From: Roseiflexus sp. RS-1
Lineage (GTDB): Bacteria > Chloroflexota > Chloroflexia > Chloroflexales > Roseiflexaceae
Assembly (NCBI RefSeq): GCF_000016665.1
Contig: NC_009523.1
Location: 3,595,501-3,659,500, forward strand
Length of the DNA: 64,000 nucleotides
Direction of reading: 5' to 3'
A program made the translations under genes and the position numbers. Below the pieces are notes generated by a model, which saw nothing but the letters and a program-made list of their open reading frames with translations, had not been told where the DNA came from and did not search any database. Shown here one piece after another: positions 11,801 to 59,133 of the stretch. How positions within the stretch are numbered: position 1 is the stretch's first letter; every line of letters starts with the position of its first letter.

Positions 11801-11813
11801 CCTCCTGTTTCCC

Positions 11814-13091
<1,278 letters not shown>

Positions 13092-13102
13092 CAATCACAC
13101 TA

Positions 13103-13247
13103 AAAATAGTACGGAGCGACACGGTGACACCGCATCGCTCCGTACTTTCAGAACCCCCAGGAACCACATAACCGGGAGGGTGATCCAATGATCTCCCCGT
13201 AAACCTTTCGGTTTACCCGCCTGCCCAATGGCCTGCGTCCCGGTTCC
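13103..13247 (-). ncRNA. Candidate structured small RNA, about 145 nt
   Basis: Read on the minus strand, a TATACT -10 box (13259-13254) is followed about 7 nt later by a structured segment. An 8-bp closing helix (13170-13177 with 13238-13245) encloses a 7-bp hairpin capped by a GAAA tetraloop (13199-13216; GAAA only on the minus strand) and a GGG/GATC hairpin (13178-13197). A 12-bp terminator stem (13108-13119 with 13135-13146) and a T-rich tract follow. The -35 box is weak. No known RNA family could be matched from memory. A leader role is unlikely because no minus-strand gene start lies downstream before galT's 3' end. Confidence 0.5.
13108..13146. terminator. Bidirectional intrinsic terminator between galT and the GH4 operon
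   Basis: A perfect 12-bp inverted repeat (AGTACGGAGCGA / TCGCTCCGTACT, 15-nt loop). On the minus strand it is followed by ATTTTTAG, a proper U-tract. On the plus strand it lies 16 bp after the galT stop and is followed only by TT, so it may serve both directions. Confidence 0.8.
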
Positions 13248-13407
13248 GACTATAGTATAACGCATTGCGCTAAAAAGAGAGTTGCGCTTTGTTCACCTCT
13301 GCGTTGCGAGGCGATAACATATGGTTAATAGATTGTTAAACAAACGATAACGTTACCCACGGTATCGGACAGGGTTGCTTTCTGGAAATGCGCATCTCGC
13401 GAAGATG

Positions 13408-14814
13408 CTAATGATACACTGGCAACCAGTCGCCGTGCGCGGCGATCAGGTCATCCACCAGCGCCCAGATCTGATCCAGGTCGAGCTCGGCGGCGGTATG
13501 CGGGTCGAGCATCGCTGCGTGGTAGATATGCTCGCGTTTGCCGGTCAGCGCCGCCTCGACAGTGAGCGCCTGGACGTTGATATTGGTTTGCATCAGTGCG
13601 GCAAGATGGGGCGGCAACGCGCCGATCTTCGTCGGCTGAACGCCGTTTTTATCCACCAGACACGGCACTTCCACGCAGCATCCCTGTGGCAGGTTGTCGA
13701 TCAGACCATCGTTCGGCACGTTGCCATAAATAACACGCGGCTGACCCGTTTCCATACTGTGGATGATCAGCGAGCCGTATTCGTGGCTACGCACGACCTT
13801 TCCCGCCTCCAGGTCTTCGGCGGCTGTGATGACATACTCGATGAACTCATCGGTCAGATATGGGTTGGTTTTGGCGCGCGCATGCATCATCGCGCGCAGA
13901 TCGGCGCTCGTCGCTTCAGGATGGTCGAGTTTGTACTGCACGAATTCCCAACCCGCCAGTTGCACCTCGCAGCGACGGATGTACTCGTCCAGCGGAATAT
14001 TGAAACGCTCGATCAGATCGGGGCGATCGCGCTTGATGAACCAGGGTGTGTATTCACTGAAATGCTCACTCGATTCGGTGACAAAATAGCTGAGGCGACG
14101 GAAGACTTCGTACCGCACCCGATTCCACGCTGGCACGCGCCCTTCGTCATAGACCTTGCGGATGAGCGGGTAGAGGTCTTCGCCGTTGCGCTCGAACCGC
14201 AGGTAGAACGCCATATGGTTGATACCGGCGCAGATATAGTTGATCTCCTCGACCGGCACGCCAATATCGTGCGCCAGTTGTTCGGCGGTGCCCTGCACAC
14301 TGTGGCACAAGCCAACGGTCTTGATCCGGCTGGCGCGACTGATCGCCCAGCAGTTGATCGCCATCGGATTAACGTATTGCAGGAAGGTGACGTCCGGGCA
14401 GACCTCTTCCATATCCCGGCACATCGACAACAACACCGGAATGGTGCGCAACCCGCGCATAATCCCGCCGATGCCGAGCGTGTCGGCGATGGTCTGGCGC
14501 AAACCATACTTCTTCGGGATCTCGAAGTCGATCACCGTGGCAGGCTTATACCCGCCGACCTGGATCATACAGATCGCATAGTCGGCGCCGTCGAGTGCGC
14601 GCCGGCGATCAGTTGTCGCTTCAATCGTCGGGCGCGCATCGAGCGCTGCTGCGACTTTGTGCGCCACAATCTCGGAGGTGCGCAGGCGCTCCGGGTCAAT
14701 ATCGAACAACGTCAGCGTTGCGTCGGCAAGTTCGGGGAAGCTCAGAATGTCGCCCATCAGATTTCTGGCGAACACAGTGCTGCCCGCACCGATGAAGACG
14801 ATTTTTGGCGGCAT
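13408..14814 (-). CDS. Glycoside hydrolase family 4, probable alpha-galactosidase
   Basis: GH4 enzymes cleave alpha- or beta-glycosides through an NAD+- and Mn2+-dependent oxidation-elimination mechanism. The 468-residue protein shows the Rossmann start (KIVFIGAGSTVFARNL), the TLFDID strand end, the GH4 motif VNPMAI, the metal-binding Cys of CHSVQG and His of GINHMAF. The lack of a phosphosugar loop motif and its place next to a sugar ABC transporter and opposite galT favour an alpha-galactosidase (MelA type) over a 6-phospho-glycosidase. The start at 14814 has GAGG upstream; an in-frame start at 14856 is less likely. It is the last gene of the minus-strand operon. Confidence 0.85.
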   Translation of the reverse strand: MPPKIVFIGAGSTVFARNLMGDILSFPELADATLTLFDIDPERLRTSEIVAHKVAAALDARPTIEATTDRRRALDGADYAICMIQVGGYKPATVIDFEIPKKYGLRQTIADTLGIGGIMRGLRTIPVLLSMCRDMEEVCPDVTFLQYVNPMAINCWAISRASRIKTVGLCHSVQGTAEQLAHDIGVPVEEINYICAGINHMAFYLRFERNGEDLYPLIRKVYDEGRVPAWNRVRYEVFRRLSYFVTESSEHFSEYTPWFIKRDRPDLIERFNIPLDEYIRRCEVQLAGWEFVQYKLDHPEATSADLRAMMHARAKTNPYLTDEFIEYVITAAEDLEAGKVVRSHEYGSLIIHSMETGQPRVIYGNVPNDGLIDNLPQGCCVEVPCLVDKNGVQPTKIGALPPHLAALMQTNINVQALTVEAALTGKREHIYHAAMLDPHTAAELDLDQIWALVDDLIAAHGDWLPVYH

Positions 14815-14867
14815 TGGGGAACCTCGTTTCTCTTTTGCAGGGCGATCCTGCGACACAGATGCGGCTA

Positions 14868-43456: not shown

Positions 43457-44130
43457 GGTGAGGTGGGTGAAGGCAGTGCCTTTGCCCACCACGGACGTCT
43501 GCTATTGCGAAGATTGAACGTTTGACTTCACTGAAAAACGCACCGCTGAGACGCCGGGAGCACGGAGAACCCTGAAAACGGACCTTGACCTTGATGGATG
43601 CACGGCATCTCGCGCCTCACGCGGCGACCGATGTGCATCAGACCGGCTCACGCGGAGGCGCGGAGGCGCGGAGATGAGGAGCGCAGCGAAGCGGGCGTCT
43701 CACGCGCCACGGCAGACCCGGACAGGGGTCAATGTATCTGAGAACTGCTATAATCCGGTATACGCTCTTGCCGTCGGGCTCATGGCGATTGAGCATTAAA
43801 TCCGCTCTACCGAACGAGCCGTGGGGCTGATGGAGATTGAGCATTAAATCCGCTATACTGCGCTAGCCGTGGGGCTGATGGAGATTGAGAAATAAATCCG
43901 CTATCCCGCGCTAGCCGTGGGGCTGAAGCCCTCGGCTAGCCAAGGCGAAGCCCGCCTGCGCGGGCTATGGCGGAATAATTACTCAAAGACCATAAGCCCT
44001 CGGCTAGCCAGGGCGAAGCCCGCCTGCGCGGGCTGTAGCGGATTATTTACTCAAAGACCATAAGCCCTCGGCTATGCAGGGCAAAGCCCGCCTGCGCGGG
44101 CTATGGCGGAATAATTACTCAAAGACCATT
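43457..44130. repeat. Repeat island after the lipid operon
   Basis: This 674-bp island contains, in order: a GACGCC-type dispersed repeat (43520-43575); an unoccupied IS110 target-like sequence with the AG core at 43656-43657; a promoter-like dispersed motif GAGAACTGCTATAATCC (about 43741); three short GTGGGGCTGATGGAGATTGA units; and three tandem copies of a roughly 69-bp element whose core is the hairpin AGCCCGC-CTGC-GCGGGCT (first at 43949-43966) ending in ATTACTCAAAGACCAT. No gene is seen. Confidence 0.85.
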
Positions 44131-44832
44131 TTATTGGCGCGCCGATGGAGCGTGCAACTCCACAATCCCATCGGGACCGGCGATCACCGCCAGTGACGCC
44201 ATACCGAGAAACAACCCGTGCGCCACGACGCCCGGAATAGCGCAGATCGACGCCGCGAGCGCTTCCGGATCGGCAATAATGCCAAAATTGCAGTCGAGGA
44301 TCAGGTTCCCCTCATCGGTCACAAACGGTGCGCCGCTGCGGTCACGGCGCAGCGCCGGCGCACCGCCGAGCGCCTTCAGACGACGCGCACAGAGCGGCAA
44401 CCCAAACGCCACGACTTCGACAGGGAGCGGCGAGCGCTCTCCCAGGCGTTCGACACATTTACTGACAGCCGCCATCACCACGAAGCGCGCTGCGGAAGCC
44501 GCCACAATTTTCTCGCGCAGCATCGCTCCACCCAATCCCTTGATCAACCGCAGTTGCGGATCGATCTCATCAGCGCCATCCAGCGCCAGATCGAGGTGCG
44601 GCTGACGATCCAGCGTTGTCAGCGGGATGCCGAGTTCGCGCGCCAGCGCCGCCGTCACTTCCGATGTCGGCACGCCGGTGACCCGTTGCAGGCGACCATC
44701 AGCCAGACGCGCTGCAAGCCCGTACAGCATGAATGTGGCAGTTGAGCCGGTTCCCAGCCCGATCGTCATCCCGCTTTCGACATGCCTGAGCGCATGTTCT
44801 GCTGCACGCTGACGGTAGAGATTGTCGTCCAC
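44131..44832 (-). CDS. rpiA: Ribose-5-phosphate isomerase A
   Basis: RpiA interconverts ribose 5-phosphate and ribulose 5-phosphate. The 233-residue protein has GLGTGSTATFMLYGLA, LDGADEIDPQLRLIKGLGGAMLREKIVA (with the catalytic Asp/Glu and substrate Lys), SKCVERLGERSPLPVEV and NLILDCNFG. It lies 13 bp downstream of the cupredoxin-like gene on the same strand. It complements xylA/xylB in pentose metabolism. Confidence 0.95.
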   Translation of the reverse strand: MDDNLYRQRAAEHALRHVESGMTIGLGTGSTATFMLYGLAARLADGRLQRVTGVPTSEVTAALARELGIPLTTLDRQPHLDLALDGADEIDPQLRLIKGLGGAMLREKIVAASAARFVVMAAVSKCVERLGERSPLPVEVVAFGLPLCARRLKALGGAPALRRDRSGAPFVTDEGNLILDCNFGIIADPEALAASICAIPGVVAHGLFLGMASLAVIAGPDGIVELHAPSARQ

Positions 44833-44845
44833 GTCGTCTCCTGAC

Positions 44846-45217
44846 TTATTCCCGCGACACGACGATGCGGAGACGCTGCGACTGGTGCAGCGTACAGATC
44901 AGTTCGTAGACTCCAGGATTATAGTAGCGCTGCTCGAACTGCTGACCGGGATCGATTTTGAACGGTCCCACCTGGATCGGCTGCACATCCTCGTTGCGAA
45001 TGACGAGCGTATCCTTCCCCCGCAGCGACAGTTCGATCGTCTGCGGCAGAATATCGAGTTGCTCGCCGGAAGCCAGGCGCGCCACACTGCCCGGAGGCAC
45101 GGTGAACACCAGATAACGTTCCGCATTGCGACGCTGATGCTCGTACCAGACGCCCGTGCCTGCAATGCCAGCCGCCAGGAGCGCCAGGATCAGCAACGCT
45201 GTACGATGCGACCACAT
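44846..45217 (-). CDS. Membrane-anchored cupredoxin-like protein
   Basis: The 123-residue product has an N-terminal membrane anchor or signal (ALLILALLAAGIAGTGVWY) and a single cupredoxin-like beta domain: DTLVIRNEDVQPIQVGPFKIDPGQQFEQRY and NPGVYELICTLHQSQRLRIVV. Cys and His of a copper site are visible in CTLH, but the first His expected in the NxD-x-xxH strand is Gln or absent, so the copper site is incomplete. It lies 3 bp after the SCO1 gene, which suggests a partner role in copper handling or cytochrome oxidase assembly. Confidence 0.7.
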   Translation of the reverse strand: MWSHRTALLILALLAAGIAGTGVWYEHQRRNAERYLVFTVPPGSVARLASGEQLDILPQTIELSLRGKDTLVIRNEDVQPIQVGPFKIDPGQQFEQRYYNPGVYELICTLHQSQRLRIVVSRE

Positions 45218-45220
45218 TGC

Positions 45221-45814
45221 TCAGGCGCCTCCCTGCCGCACCAGGTAGCGCAGGTCGCTGACAATGTCGTCAACCGGCATGCCGTGGGTGAACAGTAATC
45301 GCCAGCGCCCGGTCGCATCGATCACATAGATGAAGGTTGAGTGATCAATGGTGTACTTGAGCGCCGAGTCGGGCAGTTCGCGGCGGATCGAGGTCACGCC
45401 GTAATCCTGCATCACCGGGCTGAGTTCCGCTTCACTGCCACGCAATCCGATAAACGTCGGATCGAAAGCAGTCACATACCGTTTCAGGCGTTCCGGCGTG
45501 TCGCGGTCTGGATCGAGTGAAACGAAGACACCCTGCACCTTCTCTGCATCGGCGCCGAGTTTGCGACGAGCAGCCGCCATATCGGAAAGGGCAGCCGGGC
45601 ACATATCAGGGCAGTTAGTGAACCCAAAGAAGAGAATGACAATTTTGCCGCGCTGTTCGCTCAGGCGAAACGGCTTGCCGTCAAAGTCGGTCAGGGTAAA
45701 ATCGGGCGCTTCTTTCGGCGGGTCGAGCGTGACGCCCCGGAACTCATACCTGCCGCACGCGCTGACGACGGTCACGAGTGCGAGCAGGACGAAAACTCGG
45801 AAACCTCGCAGCAT
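45221..45814 (-). CDS. SCO1/SenC family copper chaperone lipoprotein
   Basis: This 197-residue protein delivers copper to cytochrome c oxidase or acts as a thiol reductant. It has a lipobox ending at Cys20 (VVSAC), a thioredoxin fold, the copper-binding Cys68 and Cys72 in CPDMC, and the third ligand His158 in TIDHSTF. The start at 45814 (AAGGAACGCC upstream) places the signal peptide correctly. It forms an operon with the cupredoxin-like gene and possibly rpiA. Confidence 0.92.
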   Translation of the reverse strand: MLRGFRVFVLLALVTVVSACGRYEFRGVTLDPPKEAPDFTLTDFDGKPFRLSEQRGKIVILFFGFTNCPDMCPAALSDMAAARRKLGADAEKVQGVFVSLDPDRDTPERLKRYVTAFDPTFIGLRGSEAELSPVMQDYGVTSIRRELPDSALKYTIDHSTFIYVIDATGRWRLLFTHGMPVDDIVSDLRYLVRQGGA

Positions 45815-46089
45815 GGCGTTCCTTTCAGAACATTGACCTTTTTTCGCACAACGCTCCATAGTATACCACTCGCACGCATGGCGTGGATGCAGCACAGCGC
45901 CTGTTTATCGTCGGGTTGCCGGGTCTTAACAGACACCGCATATAATGACACCACACGGTCTCAATAGCCATGGTGCAATTTCAGTGCAAAAAGGTCACTT
46001 CACCGTAGAGCCGCAGCGGACAGCGATTAATGGAAACCGCTGCACGCCCGGCGGCTCGACGGTGAGTTTTTGCGGAGCGGACTCGGGCG
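45815..46089. repeat. Divergent intergenic region carrying a dispersed repeat
   Basis: Positions 45985-46080 hold a GCAAAAAGGTCACTT and GGCGGCTCGACGGTGAGTTT inverted pair of the GACGCC/TTTTTGC repeat family. The repeat ends right at the ribosome binding site (GCGGAGCGG) of the following membrane-protein gene. Confidence 0.6.
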
Positions 46090-48075
46090 ATGCGTCTACC
46101 GATGGCTGTTTTTCTGATCCTCAGCGGTTTCTACCTGCTCACGATGAGCGGGCACACCTACTCGTCCGACGAAGAAACGATGCTTGCCGTCACCCGCGGA
46201 CTGATCGAACGCGGAGATGTGGCGGTCGTTGTCGAAGACGGCGCGCCAGTATCGGCACTCCGTCCGGGACACGACGGCAGAGTCTATTCACCCTACGGCG
46301 TCCTTCCTTCCCTGCTGGCAATCCCGCTGCATCTTCTGGGTACGCTGATCGCGCCGTCCGGTCTGCAAGCCGATTATGCGTCTCGTTTCACAACGACGAT
46401 GCTCAACTGTCTGCTGACAGCGGCTACATGCGCCATCCTGGTTCAATGGACTCAACAGCTCGGCGCAACTGGCAAATGGGCGCTGACGCTGGCGTTCCTC
46501 TATGGTCTGGCGACATTCGCCTGGACGTATGCCCGAACGTTCTTTTCTGAGCCGCTGGCCGCCCTCTTGATCCTTGGCGCAACCGAACGCGCCTGGAGCG
46601 CCTTTCGCGTCAATTCCCCCGGCGCGCAGCAAAAGACGCTGTTCGTATCAGGGCTTCTGGCGGGATTGCTGCCAGCAACCCGGATTGCTGCCGCTATCGC
46701 GCTCCCGGTCATCGGTCTGTACGTGCTTTGGGAAACGCTGAAAACCTGGTCAGCAAAACATGAGCCCACTGCAAAAAGGGTAGGTCACCGCAGAGGCGCG
46801 GCGTTCGCAGAGGAAAATCCTGCATCGCGTCAATCAAACGTGAGCGGCTTGATTATCTGGATCGCCGGTTTGCTTCCCGGTTTTGCACTTGCCGGATGGT
46901 ACAATCTGTCGCGCTTCGGAACGCTGCTTGCGTCCGGTTATGGAAGCGAAGCGTTTCAGTTCACGACGCCGCTTGCTGAAGGTCTGTTTGGGTTGCTCCT
47001 CAGTCCGGGCAAAAGCGTGTTCCTGTACGCCCCGCCTCTCCTGCTGGCTTTTCCCGGCGGTTTCGCTCTCTGGCGGCGTGGTGAACGAACCACGGTTCTG
47101 GTGATAGCGGCGCTCTTCCTGTCGCATCTGCTGCTCTACGCGCGCTGGGGTCAGTGGCCCGGCGGCGGCGTCTGGGGACCACGCTTCCTGCTGCCGGTCG
47201 TGGCGCCGGTTACGGTCCTGGCTGCCGGTCTTGACATCTTGACACCTATGCAACGCCTGAGGCTGCGTCGATTGATTCCGGCGCTCGTGCTGGGTGGTGT
47301 GGGATTCATCAGCAATCTTGGCGGCGTTCTGCTCAACTTCGACACATATGCAGTTTCCACCCCCTTCCACACCGGTGTCTATACTTTCTCCGGTTCCCCG
47401 CTGGTCGGGCACTGGCGCCTGTTGATCGAACGATGGGCGCATTATAGTGTGCCACCACCCTTCTGTCGGCTGGGCGATGGCTTGTATGCGAGTGAGGCCA
47501 CCGATAACCGGGCGCTGCCGCGACGCACCGGATCGAGCGGGGAAGTGTTCTGCACAGTACGCCGTGAAACGCGAATCACGCTGGTTCTCGATGACCGACG
47601 ACCCGATGGAGCGCCGTCCAGTCAGTTGCGCCTGCGGTTGAACGAACGTGACCAGGGGTTGTTGCCGTCCGGCCAGCAGCGAACCTACCACTGGCTCGTG
47701 CCGCCTGGTCACGTCCATCTGGAAATTATTGCGCAAACGTGGAATCCCTTTGAGACAGGCTTCAGTGATCGCAACGATCCCTTAGGTCCGGCAATCGTCG
47801 CATTGCGTGGACAGTCTGATGACGGCGCCGCACTTGCACTTGTCGATACGGCTGTGGCGCCGCTGCCGACGCTTCCACGTCCGCGCTGGGCCTGGTACTA
47901 CGATCCGCCGAACCAGCATCTGGTCGACCACTGGCTCTGGTATCTGCCGCGCTCCGAACTCACGGTCAACCAGGCGCTGGCGATGGGCAGTCTGGTCGTC
48001 CTCACCGGAACGATCAGTCTCGTCATCGGGATACGTCTGATGCTGACAGCCATTCGTAAACGTAGTGTACAATAA
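46090..48075 (+). CDS. Polytopic membrane protein, GT-C glycosyltransferase-like
   Basis: The 661-residue product has about ten membrane spans. The N-terminal part resembles GT-C / PMT-like glycosyltransferases: a short first span, then YSSDEETMLAVTRGLIERGD with the acidic DE pair in the first outer loop, then YSPYGVLPSLLAIPLHLLG. The C-terminal third (about 440-630) is a soluble beta-rich domain, followed by one last span. Residues 226-252 are encoded by an in-frame copy of a dispersed repeat, in a loop between spans. Substrate unknown. Confidence 0.72.
   Translation: MRLPMAVFLILSGFYLLTMSGHTYSSDEETMLAVTRGLIERGDVAVVVEDGAPVSALRPGHDGRVYSPYGVLPSLLAIPLHLLGTLIAPSGLQADYASRFTTTMLNCLLTAATCAILVQWTQQLGATGKWALTLAFLYGLATFAWTYARTFFSEPLAALLILGATERAWSAFRVNSPGAQQKTLFVSGLLAGLLPATRIAAAIALPVIGLYVLWETLKTWSAKHEPTAKRVGHRRGAAFAEENPASRQSNVSGLIIWIAGLLPGFALAGWYNLSRFGTLLASGYGSEAFQFTTPLAEGLFGLLLSPGKSVFLYAPPLLLAFPGGFALWRRGERTTVLVIAALFLSHLLLYARWGQWPGGGVWGPRFLLPVVAPVTVLAAGLDILTPMQRLRLRRLIPALVLGGVGFISNLGGVLLNFDTYAVSTPFHTGVYTFSGSPLVGHWRLLIERWAHYSVPPPFCRLGDGLYASEATDNRALPRRTGSSGEVFCTVRRETRITLVLDDRRPDGAPSSQLRLRLNERDQGLLPSGQQRTYHWLVPPGHVHLEIIAQTWNPFETGFSDRNDPLGPAIVALRGQSDDGAALALVDTAVAPLPTLPRPRWAWYYDPPNQHLVDHWLWYLPRSELTVNQALAMGSLVVLTGTISLVIGIRLMLTAIRKRSVQ
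46765..46845 (+). repeat. Dispersed repeat inside the membrane-protein gene
   Basis: About 40 bp (GGCGTTCGCAGAGGAAAAT to ATCGCGTCA) match the non-coding repeat at 58803-58842, and the preceding CACTGCAAAAAGGG belongs to the same family. The insertion keeps the frame and adds about 27 residues. Confidence 0.75.
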
Positions 48076-48116
48076 TTGCGTATGCATACTGAAACAGCAC
48101 AGAGGAGCACGAGCGT

Positions 48117-48488
48117 ATGCCCAGACTGACAGTTGCAGGCAAAACGGCTGAATGGAGCGCGGACAAGCGATTGGTCAACGCGATTGAGGACATGGGCATC
48201 CACATTGGTCATCGGTGCGGCGGTAAGGCGCGCTGCACGACATGCCGGGTGACGTTCATCTCCGGTGAACCCGATACGATGACCGCTGCCGAGTACGAGA
48301 AACTCAAAGAGCGCGGACTCCTCGGCGAGTACCGCCTCTCCTGCCAGATCCTCTGCACCCACGATATGGAAGTCGAGGCGGTGATGACCCTGGAAAATCA
48401 GGAAGGATGGACAGACACCGGTCCGCGCCCGGCGGATACGGTCGAACCGGCGGCGGAATGGTTTCCTACATCGACATTCGGTGCATAG
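48117..48488 (+). CDS. [2Fe-2S] ferredoxin
   Basis: This 123-residue electron carrier has four cluster Cys: Cys34, Cys40 and Cys43 (C-x5-C-x2-C in HRCGGKARCTTCRV) and Cys76 (RLSCQI). The C-x5-C spacing is of adrenodoxin type, not plant type. An extra Cys80 is near the last ligand. The C-terminal 30 residues are an acidic tail. Its redox partner is not evident; it lies 41 bp after the membrane-protein gene. Confidence 0.9.
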   Translation: MPRLTVAGKTAEWSADKRLVNAIEDMGIHIGHRCGGKARCTTCRVTFISGEPDTMTAAEYEKLKERGLLGEYRLSCQILCTHDMEVEAVMTLENQEGWTDTGPRPADTVEPAAEWFPTSTFGA

Positions 48489-48516
48489 CCGGAAGAATCT
48501 TACCCTGCTACTCTGT

Positions 48517-48545
48517 GAGCGAAGGCGGATGCGTCGCCTTCGCTC
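48517..48545 (+). terminator. Terminator after ferredoxin gene
   Basis: A perfect 10-bp inverted repeat (GAGCGAAGGC / GCCTTCGCTC, 9-nt loop) lies 28 bp after the ferredoxin stop and is followed by TCTTCGTGTT. Confidence 0.65.
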
Positions 48546-48882
48546 TCTTCGTGTTATGAAGATTGAGCCCTTAATCCGGTCTGCGCCGCGTGCCGTCGGG
48601 CTGATGGAGATTGAGCATTTCATCCGGTCTGCGCCGCGCGCCGTCGGGCAGAGGAATAGCCGATAGCCGATAGCCGATCGGAAAGCTTGCCGTCGGGCAG
48701 AGGAATAGCCGATAGTCGATCGGAAAGCTTGCCGTCGGGCTCATGGAGATTGAAAATTATAGCAGTTCTCACAAAGATTGGTCTTGTCGGGCAGGGTTGC
48801 ACCCGCCATCGAAAGCGGACGCCGTGTGCGCCATCCCTCCGCGTGCTCCGCGTCTCTGTGTGCATCAGACCGGCTCACGCGG
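48546..48882. repeat. Repeat island left of IS110 copy 2
   Basis: Holds two units of GCCGTCGGGCTGATGGAGATTGA type, short CCGATAG heptad runs (48657-48680 and 48706-48721), an inverted copy of the GAGAACTGC promoter-like motif (about 48757-48770), and CCTCCGCGTGCTCCGCGTC at 48838-48856, which matches the uninterrupted target of IS110 copy 3. No gene is seen. Confidence 0.75.
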
Positions 48883-48899
48883 AGTAACTGTGTTGCTTG

Positions 48900-49862
48900 T
48901 CAAGGGGCGCTCGTATGCACAGCCGGATCCCAGGGCTTTTGCTGACGCAATATTGCGCCGAGAATAGTCAGCAGCTTGCGCATCGCAGCGACGATGGCGA
49001 CCTTGCGCGGCTTGCCAGCTTGACACAGGCGCTGATCGAAGGCGCGCCTGACCAGACGGCGCCGCGTGGCCGCCAGGGTCGCCATGTACAACACGCTGCG
49101 CACATCCCTCCTGCCGCCGGAGATATGCCGGGGTTTGTGCTGTGCGCCGCTCTGATTGGCATACGGCGCAACGCCCACAAAGGCCGCCGCTTCCGTGCGC
49201 TTGATGGTCCCCAGTTCGGGCAGGCGGAGCAGCAGGTTCCGTGCGGTGATCGCGCCGATGCCGGGCACGCTGTCGCGCAGCTCCCGTTTCCGGCGCACCT
49301 CGTCGGTGCGCTCCGCCTCGTTGTCGCGTTCCTGCTCAAGCGCACGGATCTCCTGATCCAGCCAATCAATATGCTGCTGGATGCCCGGGCGGAGGTTCGG
49401 CGCGGCAGCCGTCAACCGATTGATCTCAGCCGTCCGCATCTGAATCACCTGCTCCCGCCGGACCAGCAGGTCGCGCAAGGATGCGCGCTGCTCGTCCGTC
49501 GCTTGGTGGTGCGGCGGGCGCACCCGTTCGGCAAAGCGGGCGAGCAACCGGGCATCCAGGCGGTCGGTCTTCGCCTGGCGTCCTTCCGCGTGCGCCAGGG
49601 CGCGCACGCGGCGTGGCTGCACCCGCGCCGTCGGCAAGCCAGCCTGGAGCAGTTGGGCGAACACCATGCGCTCCAGCCCGCCGGTCGCCTCCAGCACAAT
49701 CAGGGTCGGCTGCAGGCGCTGGAGTCGCGTGACCAGGAGCTGGACACCTTCGTCGGTAGACGGTATCGTCTCGCGTGGCGCGTGCGGGTCGGCGCCAAAC
49801 GCCACATCCAGCGTCTGTTTGGAGACATCAATGCCGATAAAGAGCGACTCACGGGAAGCCAT
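48900..49862 (-). CDS. IS110 family transposase (copy 2)
   Basis: Intact 320-residue DEDD/Transposase_20 protein with Asp12, Glu58, Asp100, Asp103 and Ser248. Differences from copies 1 and 3 include GLPTARV, ARNLLLRLPELGTIKRTEAA and PRETIPSTDEG. The stop overlaps the right-end TTGACA box. Confidence 0.95.
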   Translation of the reverse strand: MASRESLFIGIDVSKQTLDVAFGADPHAPRETIPSTDEGVQLLVTRLQRLQPTLIVLEATGGLERMVFAQLLQAGLPTARVQPRRVRALAHAEGRQAKTDRLDARLLARFAERVRPPHHQATDEQRASLRDLLVRREQVIQMRTAEINRLTAAAPNLRPGIQQHIDWLDQEIRALEQERDNEAERTDEVRRKRELRDSVPGIGAITARNLLLRLPELGTIKRTEAAAFVGVAPYANQSGAQHKPRHISGGRRDVRSVLYMATLAATRRRLVRRAFDQRLCQAGKPRKVAIVAAMRKLLTILGAILRQQKPWDPAVHTSAP

Positions 49863-49881
49863 ACACAGAACCTCCTGAGGA

Positions 49882-50017
49882 AAACGGCGCCAGCCTTGCT
49901 AGCATATGCGGGTTTGAGGGCCCAGATAACTGTTCGGCTTGGTCGCGTTGAAGGACACGGCTACCCAACACTCCGCGGCGATCTCGTGAACCTGGCGCAG
50001 AACGGTATACCGTGTCC
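49882..50017 (-). ncRNA. Predicted bridge RNA of IS110 copy 2
   Basis: Identical to the copy 3 RNA at all guide positions. The actual insertion site of this copy (GCGC-CT-CCGCG) agrees with the left (CTGCGC) and right (CGCGGAG) target guides except at outer left positions. Confidence 0.72.
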
Positions 50018-50031
50018 CGTTAGATTATACT

Positions 50032-50837
50032 AGGCGCGGAGGCGCGGAGAGCGCGCGCAGGTCTTGCAAGGTCTGTCAGACGGGGCTGCACCCGTCGCTG
50101 GAAACGAGCGCTTCACGCGCCGCCTCGAGGCGGCGCCGTGGGGGGCACGGCATGCCGTGCCCCCACACCCGTCGCTGGAAGTGGGCGCCTCGCGCGACAC
50201 GGCAGACCCAACCAGGGGTCAATGTATCTGAGAACTGCTATAAATCCGCTCTACCGCGCTAGCCGTGGGGCTGAAGCCCTCGGCTAGCCAGGGCGAAGCC
50301 CGCCTGCGCGGGCTGGAGCGGATTATGTACTCAAAGACCATAAGCCCTCGGCTATGCAAGGCGAAGCCCGCCTGCGCGGGCGCGACGTTGCTCGTGCGGG
50401 CTGAAGCCCTCCCTGAGCACGGGGAAGCCCCTGCGGGGCTGGCGCGCGGGCGCTCGTGCGGGCTGAAGCCCTTGAGCATGTGGAAGCCCCTGCGTACCAT
50501 CGTCCGTTTCAGGCATCAGGACGCCCAAACTCCCCCTTCTCCCCGTGTGGGAGAAGGGGGCGGGGGGGATGAGGGGCAAAAGGCGCGGAATGCAGCACAC
50601 CGCGCATTGCTCCCAAGAACGCTCCCTTGAGAGGGGAATACTCCTCACCATCCGTGCGCATCCGTCATAGCGGCCCCTATCGGCTATCAGCCACCGACTA
50701 CCGACTACCGGCTATCGCCTATCGCCTATTAGCTATCGGCTATTTTAGTCTGGTTGCAGGCGAGGGGCGGACACGTTAACATGAAGCCTGTTCCAGCCAC
50801 TGCTGTGGTTGCGCTGCAACTTGAGATCGGCTATGCA
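50032..50837. repeat. Repeat island right of IS110 copy 2
   Basis: Contains a GAGAACTGCTATAAATCC motif (50229-50246), two AGCCCGC/GCGGGCT hairpin elements (50297 and 50367 regions), two GGGGAAGCCCCTGCGGGGCT-type units, one minus-orientation copy of the 111-bp C/G-rich family (50490-50590), and a degenerate CTATCGG heptad run (50685-50745). No gene is seen before the DUF6883 gene. Confidence 0.8.
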
Positions 50838-51170
50838 ATGAAGATCCCGAATGCTGATCGCGCCGTCATCGATGCAGGCAAGCTTGTTGACTACCTGCTG
50901 AACCCGGAGCATCGGCGCGGCGGCAGCAAAGCCGCCTTGCTTATCTCCTTCGGGTATTCCAGTGCAGCCTGGCAACAGCTGGAAGAAGCGCTACGTCGTG
51001 ATCACCTGTCCCAGGACGTATTCCGTGTGCGCCAGAGTGCGTATGGTACACGCTACGAGATCAGAGCACACCTGAGTACCCCAATCGGACAGCCGTTGAT
51101 GTTGCGGAGTGTCTGGCAGGTCGACACGGGAACGGATGTGCCCAGATTCATTACCGCTTACCCTGATTAA
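50838..51170 (+). CDS. DUF6883 domain protein
   Basis: The 110-residue product starts MKIPNADRAVIDAGKLVDYLLNPEHRRGGSKA, the typical opening of DUF6883, and ends with a TPIGQPLMLRSVWQVD strand. The function of the family is unknown, and it is often found next to DUF4926 genes in accessory regions. The start at 50838 fits the family; in-frame ATGs at 50754 and 50781 would add 19-28 residues. It is 13 bp upstream of the DUF4926 gene and the two surely form one unit. Confidence 0.7.
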   Translation: MKIPNADRAVIDAGKLVDYLLNPEHRRGGSKAALLISFGYSSAAWQQLEEALRRDHLSQDVFRVRQSAYGTRYEIRAHLSTPIGQPLMLRSVWQVDTGTDVPRFITAYPD

Positions 51171-51183
51171 CCCGGAGAAGTCT

Positions 51184-51447
51184 ATGGATTTCCCTCTCTA
51201 CGAAGACGTTATTTTGCTGATCGATATACCGGACGAGGGGCTTGCTGCGGGCGACGTCGGCACGGTTGTCGAGCGACACGATGTGCCCGGACTCGAACCA
51301 GGCTATAGTGTCGAGTTCTTCGATATGCTCGGGAATACCGTTGCGGTTGTGACGGTCGCAGCGAGTGCGCTGCGTCGCCCGACCGCCGCCGATCGCCCGG
51401 TGGTGCGCCAGGCGCGCGTCGAGTCGCCGGTGGGAGATGGCCGATAG
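51184..51447 (+). CDS. DUF4926 domain protein
   Basis: The 87-residue product matches DUF4926 (LYEDVILLIDIPDEGLAAGDVGTVVERHDVPGLEPGYSVEFFDMLG, a small SH3-like beta barrel). The ATG at 51184 has GGAGAAG upstream. Its stop codon TAG is the first heptad of a CCGATAG array. Together with DUF6883 it forms a two-gene module of toxin-antitoxin size in a repeat island; that role is inference. Confidence 0.72.
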   Translation: MDFPLYEDVILLIDIPDEGLAAGDVGTVVERHDVPGLEPGYSVEFFDMLGNTVAVVTVAASALRRPTAADRPVVRQARVESPVGDGR

Positions 51448-52924
51448 CCGATAGCCGATAGCTGATAGCCGATAGCCGATAGCCGATAGCCGATAGGGTC
51501 ATCGTTGACCATTGTTCCTATCCGCCGTGTCGCGCAAGGCGCCCGTGTCCAGCAAAGTGTAGACCGAAATTCATTTCGGTCATCGCGTGGGGTGCGCTAT
51601 TCCCAGGAGTATTCAACCTTGCCCATTAGGTTCGACCTTTGTGAGAACTGCTATAATCCGGTATTCACCTCTTGCCGTCGGGCTCATGGAGATTGAGCAT
51701 TAAATCCGGTATGCCGCGCTAGCCGTGGGGCTGATGGAGATTGAGAAATAAATCCGGTATGCGCCGCGTGCCGTCGGGCTAAAGCCCTCGGCTACACGAG
51801 ACGAAGCCCGCCTGCGCGGGCTAGAGCGGAATATTTCTTCAAAGACCATAAGCCCTCGGCTAGCCAAGGCGAAGCCCGCCTGCGCGGGCTATGGCGGAGG
51901 GAATACTCCTCATCATCCGTGCGCATCCGTCATATCCGTGCCAATCCGTGGTCTATTCCGACTCTCCGAGGCGAAGCCCGCCTGCACGGGCGCAACGTTG
52001 CGCGTGCGGGCTGAAGCCCTTGAGCACGGGGAAGCCCCTGCAGGGCTGGCGCGCGGGCGCTCGTGCGGGCTGAAGCCCTTCCTGAGCACGTGGAAGCCCC
52101 TGCGGGGCTACGGCGTTCTCACCGCTGAGAGCAATGGGCAAAAATGATTGAACTACGTGCGGCCTGGGTGCGCGGGCGTCCCCGCCCGCATGCGGAGACG
52201 GCGGGCTGATGGAGATTGCGAAATAAATCCGGTCTGCGTCGCGTGCCGTCGGGCTGAAGCCCTCGGCTATGCAAGGCAAAGCCCGCCTGCGCGGGCTATG
52301 GCGGAGGGAATACTCCTCACCATCCGTGCGCATCCGTCATAGCGGCGCCGATCCGTGTTCTATTCCGACTCTCCGAGGCGAAGCCCGCCTGCGCCAGGCT
52401 ATGGCGGATTATGTATTCAAAGACCATGACGCCGGGAGGTAGATGGTCAGTGTTCGCAAGATGCAATCTGGTTCGGGCGGTGTTTTCCGAACAGCATAAG
52501 GGCCGTGACCCATAGCAGATCACGGCCCTCGCGTATGCGCCGCTCCAGGCGTCGGCGGGTGTCCGCCTACCACAGGGAGCGGCGCGGGTACTGTTTGGCT
52601 CGCTCAGGGCAAACCGGGAACCGGCCTGTCGTTCTCCTTGAACACCCCGGCGCCGTGCCCCCCTGATTGACTCAGGGCGTCGCGGCGCATTTCCGGCGGG
52701 CGAGAAGCGCGATACCATAGCCAATAGCCGATAGCCGATAGCCGATAGCCGATAGCCGATAGGGTCATCGTTAGAGTTCGCGTTACGCGATGGTCGGCAC
52801 GCGCACGCCGTCGGCGTAAACGCCCTGGTTCGAGTCGCAAAGGCCGACTCCGCGGCCTCATGAGCTGCCGGGCGGACCGGAGCAGAGCCAATGACAACAG
52901 CAGGAATAGCCGACATCGCCGGAC
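51448..52924. repeat. Large repeat island with heptad arrays and hairpin elements
   Basis: No supported gene in 1.5 kb. Contents: a CCGATAG array (51439-51497) ending in GGGTCATCGTT; the hairpin GACCGAAATTCATTTCGGTC (51562-51581); a GAGAACTGCTATAATCCGG motif (51644-51662); at least four AGCCCGC/GCGGGCT elements (51780-52420); a single GCGGGCGTCCCCGCCCGC hairpin (52173-52190); and a second CCGATAG array (52724-52763), again ending in GGGTCATCGTT and followed by a 100-bp unit that recurs inverted at 59935-60050. Confidence 0.82.
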
Positions 52925-53299
52925 TTACGTCTCGTTCTTGAGTTTGCACACGCTAGCGACAAAGATTGCCGTCAGTTCGCTCGTTTCCGCCAGCAACGAC
53001 TCCAGCCGTAGCGCGGCAATCAGATCAGCCTTGACCAGTAAGCGCAGCCAGTAGGCCGTTTCTTCCAACTCCTTGATGCAGATCTGTTGCCTTGCGGCCT
53101 TATCAGCCAGGCTATGAGAACGGATCGCCTCAGCGTAGTTCGCGCCTACCGATGTACCTGAACGCAGCAGTTGTTTGCCGAGCACCTGAGCAACCTGGTG
53201 GCCTGACGCGGGATAATCCGGCAATGCGTTGTACACAGCAATAATGCGCAGCGCATAGTCCTCCAAACGCTCCATGAGTTGTTGTTCAAAAGGAGTCAT
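52925..53299 (-). CDS. Four-helix bundle protein (23S rRNA intervening-sequence protein family)
   Basis: The 124-residue product fits the four-helix-bundle family first seen in 23S rRNA intervening sequences: RLEDYALRIIAVYNALP, LGKQLLRSGTSVGANYAEAIRSHSLADKAARQQICIKELEETAYWLRLLVKADLI. The family is common in mobile or accessory regions and its function is not established. Here it is not in an rRNA gene but lies between two heptad-repeat arrays. Confidence 0.85.
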   Translation of the reverse strand: MTPFEQQLMERLEDYALRIIAVYNALPDYPASGHQVAQVLGKQLLRSGTSVGANYAEAIRSHSLADKAARQQICIKELEETAYWLRLLVKADLIAALRLESLLAETSELTAIFVASVCKLKNET

Positions 53300-53862
53300 T
53301 GACTTGCGTATCAGCTATTGGCCATCACCCATCCACCACCGCCATCCGCCATCCGCCACCAGACATCGGCCATCCGCCACCGGCTATCAGCTACCAGCTA
53401 TCGGTTATCGGCTATCAGCTATCAGCTATCGCCTATCGGCCATCCGCCACCAGACATCGGCCATCCGCCACCGGCTATCAGCTACCAGCTATCGGTTATC
53501 GGCTATCAGCTATCAGCTATCGCCTATCGGCCATCCGCCACCAGACATCGGCCATCCGCCACCGGCTATCAGCTACCAGCTATCGGTTATCGGCTATCAG
53601 CTATCAGCTATCGCCTATCGGCCATCCGCCACCAGACATCGGCCATCCGCCACCGGCTATCAGCTACCAGCTATCGGTTATCGGCTATCAGCTATCAGCT
53701 ATCGCCTATCGGCCATCCGCCACCAGACATCGGTCATCCGCCACCGGCTATCAGCTACCAGCTATCGGTTATCGGCTATCAGCTATCAGCTATCGCCTAT
53801 CGGCTATCGCCTATCGGCTATCAGCTATCGGCTATCGGCTATCGGCTATCAGCTATCGGCTA
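53300..53862 (+). repeat. Large CTATCGG heptad array with 91-bp higher-order repeat
   Basis: Nearly 560 bp of 7-bp units (CTATCGG, CTATCAG, CCATCCG and close variants). From 53348 to about 53800 they form five copies of a 91-bp unit (13 heptads), marked by AGACATCGG at 53361, 53452, 53543, 53634 and 53725. All three plus-strand frames stay open, giving spurious Ser-Ala-Ile-Gly-Tyr-Arg-Leu repeats. On the minus strand every frame meets TAG each 21 bp. The array abuts the stop codon of the NACHT-FGE gene. Confidence 0.93.
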
Positions 53863-56800
53863 TTAGCAAGAGGAGAACAAACGGGCGAGACGAAACCCGA
53901 TGATGACGAGGACGTGGCCAGGGTTGAGGACGTTGCGGCAGGCGCAACGGGCGCCGTCGCGAAGGCTGTTCCACGAGCCGCCGCGCAGCACGTATGTTCC
54001 ACCAGCACGTTTGTTTTTTGTGTAAAGACTTTCTGCGCTCACCTCGCCTTTGAACGGATACTTCAGAGGTGGCGTGCTGCACCACTCCCAGACATTCCCC
54101 GCCAGTTCCTCCGCCCCGCAGGCTGCCGCGCCGTGGGGGAAGATGCCCACCACCGAGGTTCCGCTGATCTTGCTCTCGTCGATGTTAGCCTGAATGCTGG
54201 CAATCATACTCCCGCTGGTCGCGGTTGTCAACTCCGCGCCCCAGGGGTACTCGCGCCGCCCGGTACGGGGGTCGCTGCCCGGCAGGGTCGGCGGGTAGGC
54301 CGCCGCCCGCTCCCACTCGGCCTCGGTGGGCAGGCGCACCTCCTCGCCCTCCTTCAGTACACCCAGGGCGCGCAGCCAGGCGTCGGCCCACCAGGCGAAG
54401 GCCGTGGCCGCATACCATGTGACGCCGACCACCGGGTGGTTGCCCTCGCCGGCCCGGTAGCGCGCGCCGGGCCAGAAGTACGGGCGGAACCCGTTATACG
54501 TTTCCGGGGTTTCTCCGTGCTGCTTCATCAGATCCTTCAGCCGATTCGCCGCCGCGACGGCTTCGGGCGCGCCGCGCCCGGCCAGGGCCTCGACGAAGAG
54601 CAGGTACTGGCGGTTAGTCACCGGGAAGCGCGCCAGGGCGTAGGGCCGGCGGATGGTGTAGTCGAACTGCGGCTCTTCGCGGTCGTATGTGCTGTTCGTA
54701 TCACCCATGCTGAACGTCCCCGGCTCGATGCGGTTCGCCCAGTAGTCGGGCTTCGTCAGGTCAAGCCCCGGACGCTCAGTATCGGCATCCAGCCGGTCGA
54801 GCATGGTGGCGGCGCGGTTGCGCAGCGCGGGGTCGGGGTGGGCGGCGCTGCGCCAGTCCTCCGTGAGGGCGGCGAGGGCGCGCAGGCGGGCGGTGGCTTC
54901 ATCGCGCAGGTCGGCGAGGTCCTCGACCACGCCGACATCGGCAAGAGCAGCGGCGGCGAGCAGCAGGTTTTCGGGATCGCGCCTGTCGAGCAATCCCCGC
55001 AGGAGCCGCTCCGTCTTACGGATCTGCTGACCATTGCTCCAGTAGCCGGCGGCGAGCAGCAGGGTCTCGCGCCAGCGCGCGTCTGCGCTGCGCTCCAGAA
55101 GAAACGCCACGCTGTCCGGCGCGCCGTCGCGGTTGTCGAGGCTGTCGAGCGCTCGCGCCGCCAGATACTCCTGAAACGTGTAGTGCGAAAAGGCATAGCG
55201 CTCCTCGCGCTGCTGGATGATCCCGCTGTCGACGGCAAGGCGGCGCAGCAGATCATGCACCCGCCTGTCGGCTTCTTCGCGGTCAATCTTCAATCGTTCG
55301 ACATACAGCGGGCTGAGCCATTCCTGCGCCTGGCGGAGGGTCACCTCGCGCACCTGCTGCGGCTGTTGTTGCATCGCGAGGGCGAGCGCTTCCAGCCGGC
55401 GTTGCTCGGACGCAAGCTGCGCAACGCTCGTCACCAGCGTGTCGCTGGCAACATTCTGCCTGCGCCAGAGGTCGAGGAGGAGTTCGATCAACTTCTCGTA
55501 CAGTTTCGCGCGCTGGTCGGGGAGCCGGACGCTGTTGAACTGGAGCAGCGCCATCACCGTCAGCAACAGCGGATTCGTCGCCATGTCGCGCAGGCGATCA
55601 TTGCGCTCAATGACTTCCCAGAGCTGCGCGGCCTGATCGGCAGCGGCGTCCTGTCGCCGCCGCCCGATCGCGTGCAGGCGCGCATACACGGCATCGAACC
55701 ACTTGCGCAGCAGCGCCTGCGCTTCCTGCTCATCGAGCGGGCTGAGGTGCCGCTCCAGGAAGTCGGGCAGGTAGACCAGCCCGCCGTAGCCTGCCGTGCG
55801 ACTTGCGACGACGTAGCGCTGCTTATCATACCGGCGCGCGAGATTGTCAATCACCTGCGCCAGGTACGCGCGGCGCTGTTCATCGCCCGCCTCGTCCAGT
55901 CCGTCGAGCAGGAGCAGCACGTTGCCGTCGTTCTTCCCGATCAGCGACGAGAGCGCGCCCTCCTGAATCTCGCAATGCCTTGCCGCCTCGCGATCCAGCC
56001 ACGTAAGGAACAGGTCGGCCGGCGCGCCAGCGTAGCGCTCCCGCTCCTGCGGCGGCAGTTCGCGCAGATCGGCCGGGATCGACGCGGCAAAAAGCGTCAG
56101 GCGCACATAGATGGGCAACGGCGCCCGCTGCAGATGGAGATGCAAACCGGCGGCATCGCTCGCCAGCAACGCAGCATCGCCCCGGCGATACGCCTCAGCC
56201 AGGCGAAGCGCGGCATAGCGCAGGGTCGTTGTTTTCCCGCTTCCCGCATCGCCAAGCAGCAACAGGCGCGTGGTAGTCACCGGCGACGGAGATTCATCAT
56301 CGCCTGATACCCCTCTGGTCGGAGGCGTCTGGCGCGCTGCCAGCAACTCCGGCTCACTCAGCAGTTCAAACACATACCTGCTGCGACGCTCCCCGGCGGG
56401 CAACTCCCGCTCCGGCCCTTGCCGCTCTTCGCCGCGCATGCGCCGGCGGTGGGCCTCAATCGCGCCGCGTTCGACAACCCGCAGCGGCACGTGAACCGAT
56501 TCGAGACTGAGTTGCACCTGCTCGGTGGCGATACCGAGCGGCTGCGTAAAACCGTACTCCGCCTGGAGCCAGTCGAGATAGTGCGTAATGCCGACCTGCA
56601 ACTGCTCCTGGAATTGTCGAGCTTGCCGTTCGGCTTCGAGCCTCTTCTTCTCTTCCTCACGCTGCACCTCATCTTCAACATCGCTCCGTACCCCGCCGAT
56701 GAGACGATCAACCCGGCGCAAGAGACGCTCGCGCCAGGGTTTCACAACGGAAACAGCGACAACCAGCGCCATGATGACCACAAGCAGCGCCGGCTGCCAG

Positions 56801-57105
56801 GCGAACAGGGTGACGAGGGTCTCAACCGGCTTCTCGCCGCTGAGAATCCGGTCAATGGCCTCCGGCACGGTGAGCGTCGGCTCAGGGGTCGGCAGCGCCA
56901 CGGTCGGCACGGGCGGCGCCACGGTCGGCGCGGGCGGCGCTGCGGTCGGCGTGGGTGGCGCCACAGTTGGCACGGGGGTTGCAGGGAGTGCTGTAGCCGT
57001 CGGCGCGGGCTGCTGCGCCGCCACCGGGTTGAGCGCGCCGAACACCAGCGCGACAGGCAGCGCGAGGGTGAGTGCAATACTGGAAGGATGTCGTCTGATG
57101 TGCAT
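53863..57105 (-). CDS. Membrane-anchored NACHT NTPase fused to FGE-sulfatase domain
   Basis: A 1080-residue protein: signal-like N-terminus (1-30), Pro/Thr/Val low-complexity repeat (about 33-78), membrane span (about 100-122), coiled-coil (about 130-170), NACHT/STAND NTPase with Walker A GDAGSGKTT (285-293) and Walker B LLLLDGLDE (397-405), a helical repeat region (about 560-810), and a C-terminal formylglycine-generating-enzyme-like C-type lectin fold (about 815-1080: FSMGDTNS, FPVTNRQYLLF, HPVVGVTWYAATAFAWW, RLPTEAEWERAAA, ELAGNVWEWC, VLRGGSWN, GFRLAR). The last 36 residues from Trp1045 look like a hypervariable region of a diversity-generating retroelement. Likely a conflict or signalling receptor; the FGE domain is probably a ligand-binding module, not an enzyme. 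Confidence 0.88.
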   Translation of the reverse strand: MHIRRHPSSIALTLALPVALVFGALNPVAAQQPAPTATALPATPVPTVAPPTPTAAPPAPTVAPPVPTVALPTPEPTLTVPEAIDRILSGEKPVETLVTLFAWQPALLVVIMALVVAVSVVKPWRERLLRRVDRLIGGVRSDVEDEVQREEEKKRLEAERQARQFQEQLQVGITHYLDWLQAEYGFTQPLGIATEQVQLSLESVHVPLRVVERGAIEAHRRRMRGEERQGPERELPAGERRSRYVFELLSEPELLAARQTPPTRGVSGDDESPSPVTTTRLLLLGDAGSGKTTTLRYAALRLAEAYRRGDAALLASDAAGLHLHLQRAPLPIYVRLTLFAASIPADLRELPPQERERYAGAPADLFLTWLDREAARHCEIQEGALSSLIGKNDGNVLLLLDGLDEAGDEQRRAYLAQVIDNLARRYDKQRYVVASRTAGYGGLVYLPDFLERHLSPLDEQEAQALLRKWFDAVYARLHAIGRRRQDAAADQAAQLWEVIERNDRLRDMATNPLLLTVMALLQFNSVRLPDQRAKLYEKLIELLLDLWRRQNVASDTLVTSVAQLASEQRRLEALALAMQQQPQQVREVTLRQAQEWLSPLYVERLKIDREEADRRVHDLLRRLAVDSGIIQQREERYAFSHYTFQEYLAARALDSLDNRDGAPDSVAFLLERSADARWRETLLLAAGYWSNGQQIRKTERLLRGLLDRRDPENLLLAAAALADVGVVEDLADLRDEATARLRALAALTEDWRSAAHPDPALRNRAATMLDRLDADTERPGLDLTKPDYWANRIEPGTFSMGDTNSTYDREEPQFDYTIRRPYALARFPVTNRQYLLFVEALAGRGAPEAVAAANRLKDLMKQHGETPETYNGFRPYFWPGARYRAGEGNHPVVGVTWYAATAFAWWADAWLRALGVLKEGEEVRLPTEAEWERAAAYPPTLPGSDPRTGRREYPWGAELTTATSGSMIASIQANIDESKISGTSVVGIFPHGAAACGAEELAGNVWEWCSTPPLKYPFKGEVSAESLYTKNKRAGGTYVLRGGSWNSLRDGARCACRNVLNPGHVLVIIGFRLARLFSSC
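53872..53973 (-). other. Candidate DGR variable region
   Basis: This is the 3' end of the NACHT-FGE gene, from the Trp of GGSWN to GFRLAR. Most codons where families usually show Asn are NNC here (AGC, GGC, TGC, GTC, CTC, GGC, CAC, GTC, CTC, GTC, ATC), the footprint left when AAC codons of a template repeat are randomised at adenines. No template repeat or reverse transcriptase is in the window. Confidence 0.5.
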
Positions 57106-57593
57106 CAGCGTCTCTCGGACAGAATGACGGGTTCACATCGCATACGGGCGCTGCGCCCATGATAATGATAATCGAGAGCGCATAGCGAGGCAATTTCCAG
57201 CACCGGAGGATAGGGGGTTCTGCTCTTTCCTGCCCTGAGCGCCCGGTTCCAGACAAAGCGCCCGGCGCTCCCGGCGGTGATTCTGTTGCGCCGCAGAGCC
57301 GCAGCGGACGCGGAGTCCTCATTTTGGCCGTTCTCACATATGGTCTTTGAATAAATAATCCGGTATAGCCCGCGCAGGCGGGCTTCGCCCTGGCTAGCCG
57401 AGGGCTTATGGTCTTTGAATAAATAATCCGGTATAGCCCGCGCAGGCGGGCTTTGCCCTGGTTAGCCGAGGGCTTCAGCCCCACGGCTAGCGCGGTATAG
57501 CGGAATAAATTCTCAATCTCCATCAGCCCCACGGCTAGCGCAGTATAGCGGATTTAATTTTCAATCTCCATATGTGCGACATTCCTCCGCGTG
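57106..57593. repeat. Repeat island upstream of IS110 copy 3
   Basis: Two inverted-orientation AGCCCGC/GCGGGCT elements with GGTCTTTGAATAAATAATCC spacers (57340-57500), then two TCTCAATCTCCATCAGCCC-type units, and the IS110 target CCTCCGCGTG-CT. No gene is seen. The NACHT-FGE promoter should lie within 57106-57330, but no clear -10/-35 pair was found. Confidence 0.75.
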
Positions 57594-57597
57594 CTAG

Positions 57598-57603
57598 TAT
57601 AAT
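57598..57603 (+). promoter_or_regulatory. Left-end TATAAT box of IS110 copy 3
   Basis: A perfect -10 hexamer 2 bp inside the element end. In the inserted form it has no matching -35. In a circular intermediate the right-end TTGACA (58724-58729) would sit exactly 17 bp upstream. Copies 1 and 2 are identical. Confidence 0.7.
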
Positions 57604-57609
57604 CTAACG

Positions 57610-57745
57610 GGACACGGTATACCGTTCTGCGCCAGGTTCACGAGATCGCCGCGGAGTGTTGGGTAGCCGTGTCCTTCAACGCGACCAAGCCGAACAGTTA
57701 TCTGGGCCCTCAAACCCGCATATGCTAGCAAGGCTGGCGCCGTTT
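57610..57745 (+). ncRNA. Predicted bridge RNA of IS110 copy 3
   Basis: Stem-loop 1 (target-binding) is closed by GGACACGG (57610-57617) and CCGTGTCC (57667-57674). It holds CTGCGC (57627-57632), same-sense as the left target half, and CGCGGAG (57650-57656), complementary to the right target half CTCCGCG. Stem-loop 2 (donor-binding) is closed by 57681-57691 with 57732-57740 (nine pairs, two bulged A). It holds ACAGTTA (57694-57700), identical to the right end of the element, and ATGCTAG (57722-57728), complementary to the left end CTAGTAT with one G-T wobble. This is the IS621-type bridge-RNA plan. The 3' end is uncertain. Confidence 0.75.
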
Positions 57746-57764
57746 TCCTCAGGAGGTTCTGTGT

Positions 57765-58727: not shown

Positions 58728-58744
58728 CAAGCAACACAGTTACT

Positions 58745-59133
58745 CCGCGTCTCCGCATGCATCGGACCGGCTCACGCGGAGGCGCGGAGGCGCGGAGATG
58801 GGGAGCGCAGCGTTCGCAGAGGAAGATTTCATATCGCGTCACGCACACGCAGGCTTTGCCATGTTTCCATCAAGGTTCTCTGTGCCCTCGGCGTCTCAGC
58901 GGTGCGTTTTTGCAGTGAAGTCAATAATCCAGCATAGCCCGCGCAGGCGGGCTTTGCCTTGCATAGCCGAGGGCTTATGGTCTTTGAGTAATTATTCCGC
59001 CATAGCCCGCGCAGGCGGGCTTCGCCTTGGCTAGCCGAGGGCTTCAGTCCCACGGCTAGCGCGGGATAGCGGATTTATTTCTCAATCTCCATTAGCCCCA
59101 CGGCACGCGGCGCATACCGGATGAAATGCTCAA
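58745..59133. repeat. Repeat island right of IS110 copy 3
   Basis: Includes an unoccupied IS110 target-like site (AG core at 58780-58781), a GGCGTTCGCAGAGGAA-type unit (58803-58842) also found inside the membrane-protein gene at 46.8 kb, a GACGCC/TTTTTGCAG repeat (58870-58920), and two inverted AGCCCGC/GCGGGCT elements (58935-59045). No gene is seen. Confidence 0.78.

Follow-up and report, generated by a model that had tools for sequence, protein, structure and literature searches.

Evidence for a conserved cloverleaf RNA gene between galT and a GH4 alpha-galactosidase gene in Roseiflexus

Does the short intergenic region between galT and the GH4 alpha-galactosidase gene of Roseiflexus sp. 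RS-1 encode an RNA of its own, and if so, of which kind? The original prediction, made from the letters alone, placed a complete, unassigned small-RNA gene on its minus strand. Our analysis covered the window (the whole 64,000-nucleotide stretch of DNA) and the genomes of its relatives, and it indicates that the intergenic RNA between these two sugar-metabolism genes is very probably a real, conserved structured RNA. The fold, its compensatory changes, the promoter, and the terminator are kept in six genomes, and there is no Rfam match, in agreement with that prediction. The gene and its surroundings are as follows (window coordinates).

12057..13091, plus strand: galT, the convergent neighbour, part of the listed open reading frame 11973-13091 (TIGR00209, 468.7 bits)
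13408..14856, minus strand: GH4 alpha-galactosidase gene, the upstream neighbour (PRK15076, 710.5 bits, cut-off 486; PF02056, PF11975)
13254..13288, minus strand: predicted promoter, CGCAAC...CGCAATGCG...TATACT, from conservation in six genomes
13103..13247, minus strand: putative RNA gene of about 145 nt, its 5′ end placed 7 nt past the -10 box and its 3′ end in the U-tract
13102..13146, minus strand: intrinsic terminator, an 18-bp stem with an ATTTTT tail

The -10 box TATACT was found where it had been proposed, at 13259-13254 of the minus strand, immediately downstream of the palindrome CGCAnTGCG (13269-13261); a good -35 hexamer is absent from the predicted promoter. In six genomes, 25 of the 43 columns of the promoter stretch are invariant versus 15 of 51 directly upstream, and the promoter 17-mer is unique in the genome with up to 2 mismatches tolerated. 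The centre of the palindrome is A, T, or G among the homologues, two of the six starting with TGCA instead of CGCA. Farther upstream (13297-13345), a TTAACnnnnnnTTAACC...TGTTATCG block, possibly an operator, is largely common to the Roseiflexus copies and not shared by G009, the copy from the other genus. At the opposite end, the predicted terminator is there, with a stem of 18 bp and not 12: the hairpin at 13146-13108 has 18 pairs, a 3-nt loop, and ATTTTT after the stem, and the terminator scan listed none at the same site on the opposite strand. All six homologues carry a hairpin followed by T-rich sequence, with double changes in the terminator and 12 of its 56 columns invariant; the form is retained and the sequence is not. 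From these sequence features, it is indicated that the RNA is driven toward galT by its own promoter and ended by its own terminator.

The minus-strand 150 nt fold with an energy of -79.5 kcal/mol, compared with a mean of -50.6 in 200 dinucleotide shuffles (z -7.9), none of which was as stable. The z value is still -3.35 when the terminator is removed. A coding region was ruled out as the explanation, as the sense ORFs of the six sequences are short and none is common to them. As had been proposed, the RNA and galT converge at their 3′ ends and no coding region lies behind the RNA. The fold itself is a cloverleaf, in which a closing helix (P1) encloses three hairpins (P2 to P4) and is followed by a linker and the terminator. 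The junction of a closing helix with at least two hairpins proposed originally is therefore real, the count being three.

13239..13245, minus strand: 5′ strand of P1, AACCGGG, paired in six of six sequences; RNAalifold finds the same helix
13218..13237, minus strand: hairpin P2 with an AUUG loop (13229-13226), GCCAUUGGG invariant in six of six
13199..13216, minus strand: hairpin P3 with a GAAA loop (13209-13206), every pair retained in six of six
13178..13197, minus strand: hairpin P4 with an AUUG loop (13189-13186), UCAUUGGAUC invariant in six of six
13170..13176, minus strand: 3′ strand of P1, CCCGGTT, paired in six of six sequences; RNAalifold finds the same helix
13148..13169, minus strand: linker, consensus UUrCCUGUGGGUyCUGA, 12 of 24 columns invariant

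Compensatory changes, the lack of which would have counted against the original prediction, were observed: four core pairs show two-sided changes, in six cells. In P1, G009 reads AACCAGG/CCUGGUU, a G-C to A-U double change. P2 has a double change at one pair, and one P2 pair is open in three of the six sequences; P3 has double changes at two pairs. P4 has none, with 97.9% of its cells paired and an A-A mismatch in the stem of the window copy. Overall, 97.2% of the 179 core pair cells in the six sequences are standard pairs. Four double-change pairs arose in 10 of 500 shuffles and six such cells in none. Furthermore, the core covariation score was 0.180, compared with 0.112 for the shuffled alignments (0 of 500 reached the observed value) and at most 0.044 when slid. 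RNAalifold, unaided, returned the same cloverleaf. In the alignment used (A1), the G009 terminator is misaligned (consensus energy -43 versus -89 for its own fold), so that pair counts over the whole RNA understate the terminator helix; hence, we relied on the core counts.

Conservation and covariation together show a cloverleaf with twin C-AUUG-G hairpins, to the extent that six aligned sequences can. The structural support is good but not deep: the sequences come from two genera and three of them (G002, G003, and G005) are close relatives, so the independent events are few. Of the 81 core columns, 51 are invariant in the six genomes, and the strongest constraint falls on hairpins P2 and P4 (GCCAUUGGG and UCAUUGGAUC), which share the invariant C-AUUG-G loop about 40 nt apart; the linker is less constrained. 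The predicted GAAA tetraloop is present in the window, but it is not constant, since the P3 loop reads GGAAA, GAAAA, or GGAA among homologues. The linker may form a 3-bp hairpin, ACC-UGUG-GGU (RNAalifold). The window copy, with CCUGGGGGU, lacks part of this hairpin and departs from the consensus of the other copies. The minimum-energy closing helix of the window copy (CGGAACC/GGUUCUG) differs from the conserved AACCGGG/CCCGGUU, which costs about 7 kcal/mol relative to this alternative in the energy model. Read by eye, the alternative GGAACC/GGUUCU helix can be built in G009 and survives in weaker form in G004; G002, G003, and G005 have lost it.

The core is 76.7 to 78.8% identical to the window in G002, G003, G004, and G009, where the four-fold sites of galT are 43.2 to 55.8% identical, a comparison that leaves out G005 because a contig end cuts its galT. 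As judged from these identities, the core is under purifying selection, which counts against a chance fold.

Where else does this RNA occur? Among 60 related genomes (the window genome included), blastn gave strong matches in the window genome, which carries a single copy, and in five others, of which four are congeneric and one belongs to a different genus in the family. A covariance search with the core model scored the same six genomes at 98 to 122 bits. Strong matches were thus present in six of 26 genomes of the family and absent from the other 20, and the same six were the only ones among 158 of the class. The phylum sample gave strong matches in 5 of 400 genomes, G002 not being among the matches listed. 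Any match within the E-value limits was seen in 7 of 26 family, 12 of 158 class, and 9 of 400 phylum genomes; beyond the six loci, the matches were weak (17 to 23 bits). Twelve such places were rescored and, taken together with two in L083, gave 14.5 to 22.6 bits; the best 8 of these 14 were inspected as alignments. Because in none of these eight do both AUUG loops occur together with sound helices, the weak matches are treated as chance, and a wider family was rejected on the alignments inspected.

A pattern search, GCCATTGGG-gap-TCATTGGATC, returned 22 stretches in 84,980 species genomes. Five are the relatives already found; in the other 17, and in five viral stretches, the covariance model did not match where the pattern had hit. 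The phage and plasmid collections gave no match to the RNA. Viral contigs scanned with the GH4 protein gave nothing, in a scan of little use. Within these searches, the RNA does not occur beyond Roseiflexus and a single neighbouring genus.

The location of the RNA is equally constant. It has galT downstream and convergent in all six genomes and GH4 upstream on the same strand in five of them, roughly 80 to 180 nt away, the contig of G002 ending too early. The apparent loss in G001 is not established: in that genome galT is followed by an insertion-like element at a contig end, and the contig with GH4 breaks off less than 100 bases past the gene, so the RNA site falls in an assembly gap. This element (in L120) is about 1 kb long, has inverted repeats at its ends, and runs from the galT stop to the contig end. 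The more distant G006 and G011 have GH4 and galT on separate contigs; in the sequence retrieved around each of the two genes, the covariance model had no match. On the far side of galT, TTCTCGG units repeated in tandem about 27 times (7/14-bp repeat; 11809-11998) extend up to its 5′ side, and G002 has an unrelated array of 32/65-bp units upstream of galT (L125 1592-1946).

Comparison with Rfam 15 (4227 families, gathering threshold) returned only CRISPR repeats for the whole 64-kb window; these lie at 43944-59026 on both strands (RF01356, 11 matches). With E values up to 10, the region 12900-13500 gave four matches; these fell at 13306-13497, beyond the RNA, and their scores were far short of the threshold. 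The motifs of a survey of 224 motifs are said to have entered Rfam. A 6S RNA match (RF00013, 57.1 bits, above the family cut-off) sits at another place in the genome, G000:C1:3863934-3864106, and a 6S identity was ruled out on this ground. No 6S match was seen in G009, despite its completeness rating of 100%. The housekeeping role suggested at the outset is not supported by these results, given an RNA limited to two genera, a 6S RNA elsewhere, and 20 of 26 family genomes without a strong match; the trans-acting role suggested along with it is possible. Judged by titles and the beginnings of abstracts, no study of sRNAs from Roseiflexus or related Chloroflexota, or of this RNA, came up in the literature searched.

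Neither Hfq nor CsrA was found in the window genome, searches that were positive in 5 and 3 of 14 control genomes, respectively. An Hfq-dependent sRNA and a CsrA decoy were thereby rejected, and the usual chaperone and decoy models do not apply as such. We tentatively favor another reading, a docking RNA whose partner engages the twin AUUG hairpins, which we consider plausible without holding it to be probable. The RNA would be the product of a stand-alone, lineage-specific gene, limited to Roseiflexus and one neighbouring genus, with its own promoter driving minus-strand transcription toward galT and its own terminator ending it. Its cloverleaf would present the two identical invariant C-AUUG-G hairpins, which together with the conserved linker may form the working surface. 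The partner docking there would most likely be an RNA-binding protein, and the docked RNA may serve as a scaffold or decoy, needing neither Hfq nor CsrA. Four-base loops in strong stems seem to fit protein recognition better than pairing with mRNAs. Galactose use is the first candidate process, on the basis of the neighbourhood, i.e., the fixed site between the alpha-galactosidase gene and galT; however, shared ancestry alone could explain this site.

The constraint on the loops, the lack of detectable Hfq and CsrA, and a null result for target pairing lead us to place docking above the next reading, a base-pairing regulator that would bind mRNAs through its linker CCUGUGGGUyCUGA or through its loops, without Hfq. 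Many bacterial sRNAs have their seed just upstream of the terminator, and the linker here is partly conserved, single-stranded, and placed likewise; the adjoining genes are galactose genes, and pairing of Spot 42 at galK of E. coli is published (PMC8577784, in the part of that source available). But duplexes with the start regions of galT and GH4 were no better in energy than shuffles in nine regions (not every one of the six genomes supplied both starts), no Hfq match is present, four-base loops are poor seeds, and the window linker (CCUGGGGGU) is unlike the others. Such a regulator is, in our opinion, rather unlikely. Less likely again is an element of the GH4 mRNA 3′-untranslated region, whose structure and terminator would protect or end that transcript and which is perhaps released as a 3′UTR-derived sRNA. 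It would agree with the short same-strand distance from GH4 in five of six genomes, and a scan of 12500-14000 gave no second minus-strand terminator-like site. Against it, conservation across genera covers TATACT and the roughly 35 nt preceding it and is far stronger there than in the sequence further upstream, and an invariant cloverleaf is needless for a simple 3′ end.

Another reading is an orphan riboswitch, in which a terminator would follow an aptamer for a ligand and read-through would yield RNA antisense to galT. It has in its favor an aptamer-like four-way junction, a terminator close behind, and the direction of read-through into galT. A riboswitch stands as the leader of the gene that it controls; this RNA ends against galT with no coding region downstream, matches no Rfam riboswitch, and has no conserved anti-terminator, the GGAACC/GGUUCU helix being weakened or lost in the four genomes named above, which makes this reading very improbable. 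A chance fold in intergenic DNA, carrying no functional RNA, draws on the ease with which GC-rich DNA folds, and in the face of the covariation, the purifying selection, and the conserved promoter, we give it hardly any weight.

If docking is correct, the twin C-AUUG-G hairpins might be the recognition elements of a new RNA-binding regulator of Chloroflexota and the RNA the founder of a new class of protein-docking sRNAs, an extension that we regard as doubtful. The usual handles on sRNA networks, Hfq and CsrA, are not detectable in this genome; here, two identical invariant loops provide a bait for a partner search, and the location between the alpha-galactosidase gene and galT offers a simple physiological test.

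How does this RNA compare with known systems? Like 6S RNA (RF00013), it is a structured RNA that stands alone in a bacterial genome, and the two are in a similar length class. However, 6S RNA has the shape of a long bulged rod, whereas the RNA here is a multi-hairpin cloverleaf without an Rfam match. Its repeated hairpins with the same loop resemble those of CsrB/RsmZ-type RNAs and are suggestive of a protein decoy. CsrA sites carry GGA in the loop; here the loops are AUUG, the genome has no CsrA match, and by reading, any GGA in P2 or P4 sits where the loop and stem of P4 meet, not as a repeated loop. With Spot 42 (spf), it shares a terminator and a galactose-gene context, but it differs in the lack of an Rfam match, of detectable Hfq, and of pairing with the galT and GH4 starts; to our knowledge, the Spot 42 gene does not lie beside galT. 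The Chloroflexi-1 motif (RF01698) is likewise a candidate structured RNA from Chloroflexota, from which the RNA here is set apart by the absence of an Rfam match. In the available part of PMC2864571, Chloroflexi-1 is tabulated for Chloroflexus aggregans only, and Chloroflexota appear among the groups given for the pan motif. What was found here, a conserved fold with compensatory changes, is what characterizes stand-alone structured sRNAs, and on sequence grounds it forms a new family of this known kind, belonging to one lineage only.
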